Part shown: positions 3,995-8,806 of the stretch, piece after piece
Layout of the letters: every line of letters starts with the position of its first letter
Position numbering within the stretch: position 1 is the stretch's first letter
Assembly (NCBI GenBank): GCA_002162765.1
Contig: MAAR01000017.1
Coordinates: 62,001 to 126,000, forward strand
DNA length: 64,000 nucleotides
Direction of reading: 5' to 3'
Source of the DNA: Flavobacteriales bacterium 34_180_T64
GTDB taxonomy: Bacteria > Bacteroidota > Bacteroidia > Flavobacteriales > Flavobacteriaceae
The notes under the pieces: generated by a model
Seen by the model: the letters and a program-made list of their open reading frames with translations, nothing else
Database searches by the model: none
What the model was told of the DNA's origin: nothing
Made by a program: the position numbers and the translations under genes

Positions 3995-5065
3995 TTAGTA
4001 TAACATAAAAGCAAATAATACCAGTAAAATTGAGAATGGTACTAAGCAGATAAAAAAGGAGATCGTTGCGACGCTACTCTTGAAAAAGCTCAATATAAAA
4101 CCTTGACCATAAAATCGTTTTAAAGCAAAAAAGAGGTAAAAGAAAGTCGATAAAGCCAATAACCAATCAATCCAATCTGGTATATCCCAAATAAGGTTCG
4201 CTATATACATAATGCTAAATGCAGTGAACAAAAATGAGAAAAAGTAAAAACTAAATACCAAATGGTGTGCGTATCGCCCTTTATTAAAATATAAAATCTT
4301 TAATATGAAGGCAAAAATTGGTAGTAGAAAAAACAGAGCAATTGGTATCGTATCATACATAGCTTGTAAAATAGAACCTGCACCACGCTCTTTATAAAAC
4401 TTGAGCATTTGATTATAAAATTTGGTTGTTAAATAACCAGCATCATCATCCATACCCATAGCTTTAATAATCTCCTTATCCTCAGCCCCTAATGCAATCA
4501 ATGAATCTACTTTCTTTTCGTTAAAATCGAAATTCATTCCTTTATTTATTGATTTAGACCCTTCACTCTTCATAATAGAATCAGCCTTTCTAAGGTCTTC
4601 CTCTTTTAATCCCAACAACGCTTGATTAGCTTTTAAGGGCTTCAACATGTCTTCTATTTGCAAAGAATCTAAAACAGGTTTATCTACTACTATTGAGTCA
4701 TTAGATGTGGAATTTACGACACGCTCTTTTAATCGTTTGTCAAGATCTTGTGTTTCTTTTCTAACCGCAAATGAGGTAATAAAAAAGAAAACAACAGAAA
4801 TAAACAAATACATTTGAGCGGGATGTAAAAACAATAATCGCTTTCCTTCCAGGAATTTTGAAGCCAAATAACCAGGCTTAATCATTAAAGGAATAAAGCT
4901 CTTAAAAAAGCGAGCATCAAAAGAGAAATAATTACTAATGGTATTATAAAATAAAACGCCTAATGTGAGTTCATCCTTTGCTTTTTGACCACAATGTGGA
5001 CAAAATTGAAATCCTTCTTCAAATTCTTTTTCACAATTCTGACACTTAACTTGTTCTTTTTCCAT
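3995..5065 (-). CDS. DUF3667-type membrane protein with zinc ribbon
   Basis: A 356-residue protein. The N-terminus carries a zinc-ribbon-like Cys pattern (C8, C11, C22, C25; CQNC and CPHC), followed by SFDARFFKSFIPLMIKPGYLA and the LEGKRLLFLHPAQMYLF block that I recognise as the core of DUF3667. After that comes a membrane helix, a long charged and probably cytoplasmic or periplasmic stretch (residues about 105-235, rich in Asp, Lys and Ser), and four or so hydrophobic segments to the C-terminus. The family is common in Bacteroidota and has no established function. Its stop codon abuts the uvrA stop with no spacer. It diverges from the sigma-54-controlled gene at 5233. Confidence 0.85.
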   Translation of the reverse strand: MEKEQVKCQNCEKEFEEGFQFCPHCGQKAKDELTLGVLFYNTISNYFSFDARFFKSFIPLMIKPGYLASKFLEGKRLLFLHPAQMYLFISVVFFFITSFAVRKETQDLDKRLKERVVNSTSNDSIVVDKPVLDSLQIEDMLKPLKANQALLGLKEEDLRKADSIMKSEGSKSINKGMNFDFNEKKVDSLIALGAEDKEIIKAMGMDDDAGYLTTKFYNQMLKFYKERGAGSILQAMYDTIPIALFFLLPIFAFILKILYFNKGRYAHHLVFSFYFFSFLFTAFSIMYIANLIWDIPDWIDWLLALSTFFYLFFALKRFYGQGFILSFFKSSVATISFFICLVPFSILLVLFAFMLY

Positions 5066-5152
5066 TGTAGTTGATTGGTTTCATAAAAATATAAAAAAGA
5101 AACCAAAGCATGTAACTTCATAATCATCTGTAATATAGTTGTTTGTGTTTTT

Positions 5153-5168
5153 TGGCACGTAAATTGGA
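5153..5168 (+). promoter_or_regulatory. Sigma-54-type promoter
   Basis: TGGCAC, five bases, then TTGGA: the -24 half is perfect and the spacing to the -12 half is exact for RpoN promoters (TGGCAC-N5-TTGC). The final C of TTGC is G here. It lies 65 bases before the ATG of the 5233 gene and is matched by an almost identical element before the paralogue at 6085. Confidence 0.7.
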
Positions 5169-5232
5169 ATGAAAAAAACAATAGCGTAAGCCGAAAAGCT
5201 AATGAGTAGGCAAAATCTAAAATCCTAATACT

Positions 5233-5904
5233 ATGAAAAAAATAGTACAAATGTTTGCAGTTTTGTTAATTGGATTAGCAACTGTAGCTGCTGCAGGGCA
5301 AGTTTCTGCAACACGGGGAAATGATTTAAAAAATACAGCACGCTATCGTTTTGCAGAACCAATAGTGTTCATTGAGCGTGGTGTTGAATTTTTAATTTTT
5401 CCTGATGGAAGTTTTGATTTCAATACAGAAATTGAAGCTAATTTCTCAGACTCGTATTACCGAACTTCAAATTCAAGAAGAGGTACGGTTAATTCAACCT
5501 ATGGAACTCCGGGTACCCTAAGTAGAATTCACTATTCTAGACCAAGATCTAAAGGTGTAATTATTACTCACGATGGTCAGGGCCGTGTTAGAAGAATTGG
5601 TAATGTATTTATAAATTACAATAGACATGGACAAATAAAGCGTGCAGGATCTGTTTATATGAGTTATCAACGTGGTAATGACAGACTAAAACAGGTTGGT
5701 GGTTTACGAGTAAATTATAACCGCTGGGGCGAAATAGTACATATTGCTGGCGTGGTAAATCATTATAATTCACAATTTAACTGTGGCATTGGTTACAATC
5801 ACAGTAACTATGCCTTTAACGACACTCACTATGATGATGACTTTTACTACTATAGAAAAAAAGGTAAAGTTAAAAAGCATAAAAAGCGTAATGCTATCAA
5901 ATAG
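5233..5904 (+). CDS. Secreted repeat protein A, sigma-54-controlled
   Basis: A 223-residue protein with a clear signal peptide (MKKIVQMFAVLLIGLATVAAAG). After a VEFLIFPDGSFDFNTE block it has about four copies of a short strand-turn unit of roughly 18-20 residues, such as GRVRRIGNVFINYNRHGQI and KRAGSVYMSYQ, rich in Asn, Tyr, Arg and Gly. The C-terminus is His/Asp/Tyr-rich and ends in a lysine-rich tail. No enzyme motif is seen. The gene at 6085 is a paralogue over the same core. A sigma-54-type promoter precedes it and a terminator follows it. The location is presumably periplasm or cell surface; function is unknown, though such proteins are commonly annotated as hypothetical in flavobacteria. 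Confidence 0.8.
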   Translation: MKKIVQMFAVLLIGLATVAAAGQVSATRGNDLKNTARYRFAEPIVFIERGVEFLIFPDGSFDFNTEIEANFSDSYYRTSNSRRGTVNSTYGTPGTLSRIHYSRPRSKGVIITHDGQGRVRRIGNVFINYNRHGQIKRAGSVYMSYQRGNDRLKQVGGLRVNYNRWGEIVHIAGVVNHYNSQFNCGIGYNHSNYAFNDTHYDDDFYYYRKKGKVKKHKKRNAIK

Positions 5905-5941
5905 AAATTCAATGTTACCCCTAACTAGAAGGTGATACTAG

Positions 5942-5978
5942 AATCCCGAACGTCGTACCCAAAGGCTTCGGGATTTTT
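5942..5978 (+). terminator. Intrinsic terminator after secreted protein A
   Basis: A 9-bp perfect stem AATCCCGAA/TTCGGGATT (5942-5950 with 5967-5975), 16-nt loop, then a T run. It separates the two paralogues, so they are transcribed independently. Confidence 0.8.
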
Positions 5979-6031
5979 AATTCTCCTATAAGTTGTTAAT
6001 TTTTATAGACATACATGATTAAGTCTTTTTT

Positions 6032-6047
6032 TGGCACGTTGTTTGTT
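6032..6047 (+). promoter_or_regulatory. Sigma-54-type promoter
   Basis: TGGCAC, five bases, then TTGTT, preceded by a T run. As before the paralogue, the -24 half is perfect and the -12 half has TTG at the correct spacing but lacks the final C. It lies 38 bases before the ATG at 6085. Confidence 0.7.
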
Positions 6048-6084
6048 TTACATGATTAGAGTATAAATTTAAACCCATACAATT

Positions 6085-7263
6085 ATGAAAAAATTAGCTT
6101 TTCTTTTTACTGCCGCTCTTTTAATGAGTGTCACGGTAAATGCAAAAACCACCAACATCATCGTAAAAAAATCAATATCAAGCGCTTATGCTAGTGGTTA
6201 TGGAAATTCTTTCATATTTGAAGAAGGCGGTATTGAATTTTCTGTTTTTCCAGATGGACAATTTGATTTTTATATGTCTGATTTTGGCCCAGACCTTAAT
6301 GTTGGAGTGCATACTTCAAATGTTTCAATTAGTTTTAATACAGGATATGATTATAATCCTTATGTTCAATATGATGATTATGGTGCAATAATTCAAATTG
6401 AGAATGTGTCAATTTATTATGATCATTATGGTAGAATTTCTCAAGCTGGTAATGTGAATATTCATTACAACAGGTATGGTCGTGTGAATCGAATTGGAGG
6501 ATTATACGTTCATTATAACCGACACAGAACGTTTTCACATTGTACTGGTTTTATCAATATGTATAACAGAGTTTATGTATACAGACCTTGGCACACATAC
6601 TATGTAGTTCCTTCGTATAATTATTGCGTTGTTAATATCCGTCCTTATAGACAATATTACAATCCTGTTAGACATCATTATTACAGACCATATAGAGATA
6701 ACAATAGACAATCCATAAATGTTAATGGACGAAGAAATACGCTTGCCAACTCTGGAACTAGACGAAATAGTGATCGATATAGACAAGAGCAATCCGTAGC
6801 TAATACTGACAGAAACTCTTCAAGCACAACAACAAGACGAGGAACTGATAGAATCGCTTCGAATTCAACTATTAGAAGAGGTAATAACAACGCTAACACG
6901 GGAACTATTAGAACTACAAGTCCAAATGTAAGACCAATACGTAGTAATAGCACTCAACGTTCTAATACAAATACCGTTCGTAGTAGTAATGCGAATATTT
7001 CTAATCCAACTAGAACTAGGACTAATACTAAATCATCGTCTGTTAGAAATGTGACCAAATCGAATACTTCAGTGTCAAAACCTAAAAGGAGTTCGATTAG
7101 AAAACCAAATACCTCTAAGAAACGTACATATAATACAGGCAATAAAACAAGAAGTTCTAAAAAAACGTCGAAATCGAATATTAGAAAACAAAGTGTTTCT
7201 AAGAAATCCAGTTCAAGAAGTGCTAAAAGTGGTTCAAGAGCTGCAAGTAAAAAGAGACGATAA
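6085..7263 (+). CDS. Secreted repeat protein B with a basic low-complexity tail
   Basis: A 392-residue paralogue of the 5233 product. It has a signal peptide (MKKLAFLFTAALLMSVTVNA), the shared IEFSVFPDGQFDFY block, and repeats such as NVSIYYDHYGRISQAG and NVNIHYNRYGRVNRIG up to about residue 155. A Tyr/Pro/Arg/His-rich segment follows (residues 160-210). The last 180 residues are an Asn/Ser/Thr/Arg region that turns into a strongly basic Ser/Lys/Arg tail ending SKKRR. That tail is absent from the shorter paralogue. It is probably exported and could bind polyanions such as DNA or acidic polysaccharide, which is inference from charge alone. It is controlled by its own sigma-54-type promoter. 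Confidence 0.78.
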   Translation: MKKLAFLFTAALLMSVTVNAKTTNIIVKKSISSAYASGYGNSFIFEEGGIEFSVFPDGQFDFYMSDFGPDLNVGVHTSNVSISFNTGYDYNPYVQYDDYGAIIQIENVSIYYDHYGRISQAGNVNIHYNRYGRVNRIGGLYVHYNRHRTFSHCTGFINMYNRVYVYRPWHTYYVVPSYNYCVVNIRPYRQYYNPVRHHYYRPYRDNNRQSINVNGRRNTLANSGTRRNSDRYRQEQSVANTDRNSSSTTTRRGTDRIASNSTIRRGNNNANTGTIRTTSPNVRPIRSNSTQRSNTNTVRSSNANISNPTRTRTNTKSSSVRNVTKSNTSVSKPKRSSIRKPNTSKKRTYNTGNKTRSSKKTSKSNIRKQSVSKKSSSRSAKSGSRAASKKRR

Positions 7264-7280
7264 GTATAAAAATATAAAAA

Positions 7281-7344
7281 CTTTGGTTGGTTAGTTGGAA
7301 GTTCCTGCAAGTCGTATGCCTCAAAGCACTTTGTGGGAATTTCC
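7281..7344. repeat. Hairpin-forming intergenic element
   Basis: Bases 7297-7310 can pair with 7331-7344 over 14 positions, three of them G-T wobbles, with a 20-nt loop. It fills the gap between the convergent genes ending at 7263 and 7349. On the minus strand it is followed by a T-rich stretch and may terminate the glycan operon. Parts resemble text at 5942-5975 and 43301-43389. Confidence 0.45.
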
Positions 7345-7348
7345 TATT

Positions 7349-8806
7349 CTAGCGCAGTCTTAAATACTTCTTTATGGCTATTGAGATATCCTCTGAAAGG
7401 TTCAATTTATATATTACAAGCGTATAGGATAATGCAACTACAAACGATTTCAAAACAATATTTAGAATTGGATGAAATGCAAATTCCCAAAAATAAAAAA
7501 CACAAACTAGGAGCGTCAAAATAACACCAACAATAAGGGTTTGAAATAAAAACGGCTGAATGTTGAATTTTTGATTTACAAAAATTAGTTTAATAGTATT
7601 GTAAATAAAAATGGCTATAAACGTAGCTAAAGCAGATCCATTTATTCCATATAAAGGGATGAAAATCATATTTAGGATTATCGTTAAAACTGTCAAGACT
7701 ATTCCAAACAATAACACCATTCTATAATAATCACTATTAAATAGAATCGCATTATTATTTCCTAACATGTTGTCATAAAGTTTAGCAAAACTAATGAGAA
7801 ATACAACATAAATTCCTCCATTAAATTCTTCAGGAATTATAAGATACAACTGATTAATATTTAACACGATTAGCAGAAAAACAAGTCCGCTAATTATAAA
7901 TAAATTAAGAGAGGATCTTCGATATAAATCTTTCAAATCCGTACTATTTTTAGAATTTAAATATTGTGCTGTTAAGGGTGAAAGAATTTGGTGCATTGCA
8001 CGCTGTGGAACAGCAATAACAGTAGCAATAAATATAGCGACACTATAATAAGCAACTTCCTTTATCTCTAGATATTGACCTAGCATAAACTTATCTATAT
8101 CCAAAATTAAAGTCGCAATTGAACCTGCTATAATTATAAGCGATGAATATTTTAATACAGCGCTTAAATTATCAATTTTTTTAAATTTTAGAACTGGAAA
8201 TCTTATACTAAACGCATAAATTTTCATGATCAACATTCTCAGAACATATATTCCAATAATTCCTAAAATAAATTGATCTACGTTAATATATTCAAGATGC
8301 ACACAAAACAAAAGTAGCATCACTCCTATTCTATGAAAGACTTCCTTCATAAAATTGCCAAAAGCGGTCTGTAATTGGACTTTAGCCCATGCAAAAAACA
8401 CTTCAAAGTAAGCCATTGCAATGGCTGCAATAAAAATAAACCATACATAATCTTTAACGATACTATTCTTCTGTGATAACAGTTCGCTTATAGTTTCATA
8501 GGATATATAGCCAACTATACCAATCGGTATAGCAATTAATATTGGTAAAAACAGCATTAATGTTAAAAAGCTATTCAGTGCATTTTTCGTTTTAAACGTT
8601 GAATAGAATTTAATCAAGGTATTGTGCACACCAAATGCCATTAAAGGCATCATAATATTTGCCGAGGATAACACGAAAGCCACAAGTCCGTAATATTCAT
8701 CAGTAATAAAAGCAGTATAAAGGAACAAGGTGTTTATTGCACCTATTCCAAATCCTAAATAGGTTGTAATTGTGTTCTTGAAAGACTGACTAGTTACAAT
8801 GCCCAT
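7349..8806 (-). CDS. Polysaccharide flippase (Wzx/MOP superfamily)
   Basis: A 485-residue protein that is hydrophobic nearly throughout, with about 12-14 predicted membrane helices. The start (MGIVTSQSFKNTITTYLGFG) and the later ALATFIAIFIYNTIKLIFV segment are typical of oligosaccharide flippases of the MATE/MOP superfamily. It should move lipid-linked glycan units across the inner membrane. It is the last gene of a four-gene minus-strand operon; its ATG shares one base with the stop of the glycosyltransferase upstream (TAATG), a sign of translational coupling. The substrate cannot be read from the sequence. Confidence 0.85.
   Translation of the reverse strand: MGIVTSQSFKNTITTYLGFGIGAINTLFLYTAFITDEYYGLVAFVLSSANIMMPLMAFGVHNTLIKFYSTFKTKNALNSFLTLMLFLPILIAIPIGIVGYISYETISELLSQKNSIVKDYVWFIFIAAIAMAYFEVFFAWAKVQLQTAFGNFMKEVFHRIGVMLLLFCVHLEYINVDQFILGIIGIYVLRMLIMKIYAFSIRFPVLKFKKIDNLSAVLKYSSLIIIAGSIATLILDIDKFMLGQYLEIKEVAYYSVAIFIATVIAVPQRAMHQILSPLTAQYLNSKNSTDLKDLYRRSSLNLFIISGLVFLLIVLNINQLYLIIPEEFNGGIYVVFLISFAKLYDNMLGNNNAILFNSDYYRMVLLFGIVLTVLTIILNMIFIPLYGINGSALATFIAIFIYNTIKLIFVNQKFNIQPFLFQTLIVGVILTLLVCVFYFWEFAFHPILNIVLKSFVVALSYTLVIYKLNLSEDISIAIKKYLRLR

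Follow-up and report, generated by a model that had tools for sequence, protein, structure and literature searches.

Genes A and B are two paralogous genes in a 64,000-nucleotide stretch of the genome of Flavobacteriales bacterium 34_180_T64, which measures 3.16 Mb in 19 contigs (contig MAAR01000017.1, here C3, positions 62,001 to 126,000; hereafter the window). Each is preceded by a sigma-54-type promoter, and the one before gene B recurs in all 30 loci fetched from the Flavobacteriaceae, one per genus. Control of both genes by sigma-54 is very likely. We read them as sigma-54 units that the activator L034 would open, that would encode envelope proteins and whose messages carry conserved RNA ends; to this explanation as a whole we give a probability of about 0.7.

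Sigma-54-type promoters of genes A and B

An earlier note on this DNA had placed an exact -24/-12 motif in front of both genes and in front of no other gene here. Both statements hold: the + strand has TGGCAC-N5-TTG at 5153 and again at 6032, and a search of both strands of the window showed no third exact match. With one mismatch allowed, 10 matches are found against 9.94 expected, so that only the exact form of the motif is informative. The T of TGGCAC lies 80 bases before the start of gene A and 53 bases before that of gene B, and the bases following TTG in the two sites are G and T. Counting from the -24 position, we predict transcript starts near 5179 for gene A and near 6058 for gene B.

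Conservation was analyzed in 60 genomes of the family, one per genus, and sites were scored out of 12 against the consensus. Gene B was matched in 49 of the 60 genomes (weakly in G002), from which the 30 best loci, one per genus, were fetched. Sites scoring 10 or 11 are present in 30/30 of these loci, compared to 2/120 control windows with a score of at least 10, and the reverse strand never rose above 8. Nineteen of the 30 sites stand 48-54 bases before the start of the gene B match. At one locus (L066) the highest score belongs to a unit just upstream bearing the sequence tag described below; gene B has a site of its own there, likewise with a score of 10. In a second set, the best 80 of 536 gene B relatives, all 80 named loci have a site of at least 9. 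This score was reached on the reverse strand in 1/80 and among the controls in 40/458 windows, a count that may include promoters of gene A. Gene A was found at most 4 kb upstream of gene B in 33 of these 80 loci, 30 of them with a site of at least 9. TGGCA and TTG are invariant in the 64 loci that were parsed, including the GG and the exact -24/-12 spacing, while the flanking columns are mostly of low information (background 0.1 bit). The closest named relatives in this set come from Ichthyenterobacterium, Psychroserpens and Meridianimaribacter.

A class-wide search showed relatives in 9/198 genomes: the window's own, three of the same family, four of one other family, and G083, whose relative is a borderline match (E 7e-4). 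By eye, the site of L345, from another genus of the same family, reads TGGCAT-N5-TTG. In three loci of the other family (L346, L347 and L349) the TTG stands one base nearer, as TTGGCAC-TGTC-TTGG and the like, also by eye; TTGGCAY with the nearer TTG is possibly a shifted -12 element. The upstream sequence covered at the fourth (L348) does not reach far enough to show this.

The terminator that had been claimed between the two genes is found as a hairpin followed by a T run, with arms starting at 5942 and 5967. The segment 5905-5985 folds with a minimum free energy of -21.6 kcal/mol (z -3.08 against shuffles). A simple terminator scan, which permits loops of 3-8 only, reported none in 5000-7500. 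Genes A and B would be transcribed separately, as two units of a sigma-54 regulon of flavobacteria (Table 1).

Table 1. Features of the window, and candidate sigma-54 activators encoded elsewhere in the same genome.
Feature	Position	Strand	Description or basis
Sigma-54-type promoter of gene A, TTGGCACGTAAATTGG	5152..5167	+	Exact motif and conservation in relatives
DUF805b RNA (RF02914)	5181..5212	+	Rfam; covariation indicates an H-type pseudoknot; 20 nt from its end to the ATG
Gene A	5233..5904	+	223 aa; signal peptide, beta-hairpin repeats, short basic C-terminus
Intergenic terminator hairpin (AATCCCGAA ... TTCGGGATT, followed by a T run)	5942..5975	+	Fold and sequence
Sigma-54-type promoter of gene B, TTGGCACGTTGTTTGT	6031..6046	+	Exact motif and conservation in relatives
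Gene B	6085..7263	+	392 aa; signal peptide, about 190 aa of beta-hairpin repeats, 178-residue tail
3' RNA element	7282..7353	+	TTTGGTTGGTTAGT tag, then covarying hairpin with apical GC-CUCAAA-GC; covariation
Activator L033			PAS-PAS-AAA+; no Pfam helix-turn-helix
Activator L034	C6:69369-70529		387 aa; Response_reg, Sigma54_activat, AAA lid; no Pfam helix-turn-helix
Activator L035			AAA+-Fis without receiver
Activator L036			Receiver-AAA+-Fis

RpoN, its activators and the wider regulon

The genome of the window encodes RpoN with its three Pfam domains (activator-interacting, core-binding and DNA-binding). Sigma54_DBD (PF04552) was matched in 59/59 relatives, so that rpoN is present in all 60 Flavobacteriaceae genomes. 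Four strong matches to the activator domain PF00158 lie in the genome, all on contigs other than the window's. L034 is the most conserved activator among those examined: it is full-length in 58/60 genomes including the window's, with 65-91% identity in the other 57. The gene directly before it is presumably MscS-like. This position, and its putative targets here, distinguish the flavobacterial L034 from FlgR of Helicobacter and CtcC of Chlamydia. What it shares with these two, Pfam naming no helix-turn-helix in it, is an activator domain without a DNA-binding domain, a known arrangement (type Ic) according to the part of the survey at hand (PMC3162934), and FlgR is described as acting without an enhancer in the accessible text of another report (PMC9696931).

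No enhancer motif was found upstream of the 80 anchored sites from column information, nor as gapped 4+4 words in the 350 bases upstream of 79 loci; both analyses gave only A/T-rich sequence. This result fits L034 as the activator and does not prove it. RpoN holoenzyme would bind the -24/-12 sites and an ATP-driven activator would open it; the likeliest one is the widely kept L034, which would act without an enhancer, as FlgR does. We infer that L034 is a candidate enhancer-free activator of genes A and B. Elsewhere in the window, the open reading frame (ORF) at 395-979 on the - strand has, by eye, the look of an ECF (extracytoplasmic function)-type sigma factor.

The genome-wide search for other sites that had been proposed gave 27 exact TGGCAC-N5-TTG sites, of which 22 lie within ORFs of at least 100 aa and 5 outside. 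These 5 precede gene A, gene B, two lipoprotein-like genes (318 aa and 319 aa) and an ORF-less stretch on contig C5. As to sigma-54 control, the idea of a small RpoN regulon is supported by the conserved promoters and the presence of rpoN; its restriction to repeat proteins is not, given the lipoprotein-like genes and the ORF-less stretch. The 318-aa gene recurs behind TTGGCACG-N4-TTG in relatives (L075-L077). The 319-aa gene, whose site is at C5:88598 (L016), encodes a tail rich in Arg and Ser, similar to the gene B tail. Over the 60 genomes, TTGGCACGNNNNTTG has 149 matches compared to 33 for the reversed pattern, an excess that is partly coding sequence. TTGGCACGAAAGTTG, variants of it included, was found repeatedly across many genomes and rejected as a promoter: the examined cases (L014 at C5:3752 of the same genome, L078, L081, L090, L093, L096 and L102) lie inside a coding gene, which we take to be cobalamin adenosyltransferase-like. 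Such sigma-54-like matches are a coding artefact that inflates motif counts.

The literature found on flavobacterial sigma-54 targets consists of a start-site map of F. psychrophilum (PMC9723704) and a computational survey (PMC12316311), each available to us in part. Sigma-54 regulons of exported proteins are already known from the former: the map puts sigma-54 promoters in front of exported proteins whose function is unknown, its SM4 motif precedes chaperone, gliding, exported unknown-function and lipoprotein genes as well as the RNA Rfp36, and one SM4 promoter was tested by mutation (PMC9723704). The present case is alike in that -24/-12 promoters stand before genes for exported proteins and for a lipoprotein, and before a putative regulatory RNA. 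In the accessible part of that report there is no mention of the pair of repeat proteins, of the 3' element or of the common tag. An earlier survey, as far as its available text goes, describes sigma-54 as controlling the exterior of bacteria (PMC3162934), and the newer computational one, in the part at hand, predicts other targets in Flavobacteriia, namely chaperones, TonB and ribosomal proteins (PMC12316311).

Conserved RNA elements at the transcript ends

The message of gene B would end in a structured element. It consists of TTTGGTTGGTTAGTT and a hairpin, conserved in relatives: within 200 bases of the stop codon, GGTTGGTTAGT or a near form is found in 64/80 and CCTCAAAG in 53/80 of the best 80 of 536 loci. 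In 57 aligned elements (of 62 available), 95.9% of the cells are paired and 11/15 pairs of the long stem have changed on both sides; on none of five measures did any of 500 shuffles come as high. Each of the 62 forms a fold of 11 or more pairs. A covariance model showed 18 matches of at least 60 bits in the 60 genomes, one per genome, some of these genomes belonging to species used in building the model. All 18 begin 13-412 bases after the gene B match, and the weaker matches are, in the cases compared, tags with other hairpins. A pseudoknot, UUUGG:UCAAA, is possible but unproven; it is 97.9% paired and shows no compensatory change. No Rfam family matches the element at its gathering score. 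Weak matches to two microRNA families and one long non-coding RNA region, far below gathering scores, were discarded. The literature search showed no description of the tag or of the element, which has no name to search for, and the RNA parts appear to be undescribed.

The tag itself, TTTGGTTGGTTAGT, was found at 80 places in 34/60 genomes, 23 of them behind gene B. Among the other 57 places, 21 have a sigma-54 site of at least 9 located 100 to 24 bases upstream, compared to 11/341 controls. None of these 21 has an ORF of at least 100 aa over the tag, shorter ones remaining possible, and hairpins follow by eye. The window's genome has just two exact copies of the tag, one following gene B and the other at a locus on C5 behind a sigma-54 site. 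This second locus (L003, also L310; C5:82685) would give a candidate non-coding transcript of about 110 nt, downstream of the sigma-54 site and containing the tag and a terminator hairpin. Eight tag loci, from 8 genera (L253, L264, L272, L304, L307, L310, L318 and L327), lie beside the same neighbour gene, which we assume to be SPFH-like. In three others (L254, L265 and L280; the site of L265 scores only 8) the tag unit stands between gene B and a gene that is presumably uvrA. The terminator of 13 aligned stand-alone copies covaries at 8/13 pairs, and the copy in the window's genome folds better than its shuffles (z -3.33). At four more places the tag stands behind a gene that has a sigma-54 site: a lipoprotein gene in three cases, a relative of gene A in the fourth. 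Six other tag-bearing genes, read to their starts, have best upstream scores of 7 to 10 and no convincing site.

Since the tag is common to the gene B 3' end and to the RNA candidate behind a sigma-54 site, it suggests a common RNA-binding partner, or release of the gene B 3' end as a small RNA. We propose only tentatively, holding it to be rather unlikely, that the sigma-54 regulon of Flavobacteriaceae includes a regulatory RNA layer, made of the gene B 3' end and the small RNA with a single-stranded UUUGGUUGGUUAGU by the terminator hairpin. Both RNAs would then act via a common RNA-binding protein or as mutual competitors.

The message of gene A would begin with a DUF805b pseudoknot near the start codon, probably for control at the level of translation. 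The DUF805b match in the gene A leader scores 38.9 bits, above the Rfam gathering score of 35.6, and begins two bases past the predicted transcript start. The 60 genomes have 73 listed matches, in 34 genomes, and 40 of the 71 examined are above the gathering score. A sigma-54 site of at least 9 lies within 60 bases upstream of 13/71 hits, always 27-31 nt before the motif; behind these 13 are 11 proteins of the gene A/B family and 2 copies of a 148-aa exported protein. What differs here from DUF805b as known in Rfam is this joining to a sigma-54 promoter at a fixed spacing. DUF805b was rejected as a general sigma-54 leader, 58/71 hits having no such site. The flavobacterial -7 box is near only 6/71 hits, at no fixed place. 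In 65/71 copies the distance from the end of the motif to the start of the longest ORF is 15-27 bases, the proteins being varied and often exported. This position near start codons indicates that DUF805b is an element of the region where translation begins, which in the present case is joined to sigma-54 control.

Two base triplets, one just before GAAAA and one just after AGTA, are unpaired in the Rfam consensus line. We observed that these triplets are complementary in 48/67 distinct hits, compared to 14.4 expected from shuffles (maximum 26), and in 33/38 hits above the gathering score, compared to 12.3 (maximum 21). Such a covarying second stem makes the motif an H-type pseudoknot. The name DUF805b was not found in the papers searched; DUF805 appears only in papers which, by their titles, deal with other matters. 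A CCCAAAG-like conserved loop in the gene A 3' region was dropped as a candidate because it was present in only 5/33.

Gene products and alternative explanations

The two proteins are paralogous, as had been claimed: they align with 26% identity over 208 columns (E 3e-13) and both carry FPDG.FDF and Y/N/G repeats. They would be exported proteins built of 16-residue, YD-like beta-hairpin repeats. The gene B tail is rich in S, R, T, N and K, with 46 K+R against 4 D+E and a calculated isoelectric point of 12.0. Long, basic and probably disordered, it may hold the protein to a polyanionic layer of the envelope, and the product is probably exported and envelope-bound. The earlier description as surface repeat proteins stands in part: the signal peptides are assigned by eye, while surface location is unproven and neither a Pfam domain nor a type 9 secretion C-terminal sorting domain was matched in A or B. 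Pfam gave no family for either protein at E up to 1, the RHS repeat model included, and only weak matches for 51 family members (1 to 3 members each, best E 0.014). NCBIfam gave a single match, to gene B, far below its cut-off, and sequence searches of the PDB gave none below E 0.3. AlphaFold2 models the hairpin repeats with a local pLDDT (predicted local distance difference test) of about 77-87 and the rest at low confidence. Rhs and teneurin YD shells lead both structural lists, weakly (Foldseek E 0.022; Z 6.6 and below). The likeness to RHS/YD-repeat shells lies in the short YD-like hairpin repeats, seen by eye; the difference is that the structural matches are weak and that A and B have no Pfam RHS repeat. 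The family appears to be undescribed.

Several results weigh against the explanation that we favour. The set of 80 named loci holds the best of 536, and many of its members share a genus; the five further gene B relatives from the class-wide search, L345-L349, score only 8 or 9, which slightly lowers our overall confidence. L034 is missing from G034 and from G057, the latter with gene B and with an assembly that is 80% complete, and it is found in 10/11 genomes without a detected gene B. The tag is also not an exclusive mark of sigma-54 transcripts, an idea that we abandoned: 32/80 places are neither behind gene B, nor small RNA-like, nor behind another gene that has a sigma-54 site, and 5 of these 32 are inside ORFs. 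Taken as single sequences, window positions 7264-7400 fold only moderately better than their shuffles (z -1.64; 11/200 as good), and the gene A leader, folded by itself with nested pairs, has no structure (z 0.50), which is to be expected of a pseudoknot but lends it no support. Mean pLDDT is 58 and 55 for the two proteins, 58 being that of the model compared for the YD-shell fold.

The -12 element calls for the same caution. The textbook sigma-54 consensus is TGGCAC-N5-TTGC, in which the final C is a preference and not a defining base. In the relatives, the TGGCA and TTG of the search motif proposed in the earlier note are kept, and its last base is not: among the 80 sites (best 80 of 536) the base behind TTG is T 57 times, G 11 times, A 8 times and C 4 times, so that most sites lack the C of the textbook element. 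A missing C would suit a motif that is the site of another regulator, or a promoter variant of the primary sigma factor, and TTTG looks like the last bases of TAnnTTTG, the flavobacterial -7 box given in the accessible part of the F. psychrophilum report (PMC9723704). We consider this very improbable, as TAnnTTTG was not found on the + strand of 5001-6100, GG, TTG and the exact spacing do not vary in the parsed loci, and every genome has rpoN. Sigma-54 sites have moreover been published for the family. The presence of rpoN, the conservation of the sites and the F. psychrophilum map, in the part at hand, together strongly support sigma-54 control (PMC9723704).

If the promoters are those of sigma-54, they could be served by another activator (L035, the PAS protein L033 or the second response regulator L036) bound at sites whose distance varies. 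Pfam detects a Fis-type helix-turn-helix in L035 and in L036, and about 70 residues of L033 continue past its AAA+ lid domain without a Pfam name. The neighbours of L035 are presumably miaB-like and lptE-like genes. An F. psychrophilum activator gene before lptE is itself listed under an SM5 promoter in the available part of the map (PMC9723704). Against this possibility, which we find doubtful but worth keeping in mind, stands the lack of a conserved enhancer upstream of the 79 loci, a search that a weak or variable site could escape. For the gene B 3' end, the hairpin and tag might be merely a strong terminator of a common flavobacterial type with no regulatory role. T-rich sequence follows the hairpin in many loci, and the tag precedes hairpins behind several unrelated genes, both by eye. 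Termination, however, requires neither a 13-base tag that hardly varies nor a conserved sequence in the apical loop, and the 18 strong matches to the full element are all placed after gene B; we regard this possibility as a real one that falls short of an even chance.

With sigma-54 units of envelope proteins as the preferred explanation, four features are unusual here: conservation that is uniform across the family, a changed base in the -12 element, an activator that is a candidate for working without an enhancer, and RNA ends that are conserved. If the RNA layer is real, the message of an envelope protein would also be a regulator. The A/B pair provides marker promoters, conserved in all 30 genera fetched, together with a candidate activator and candidate RNA regulators.

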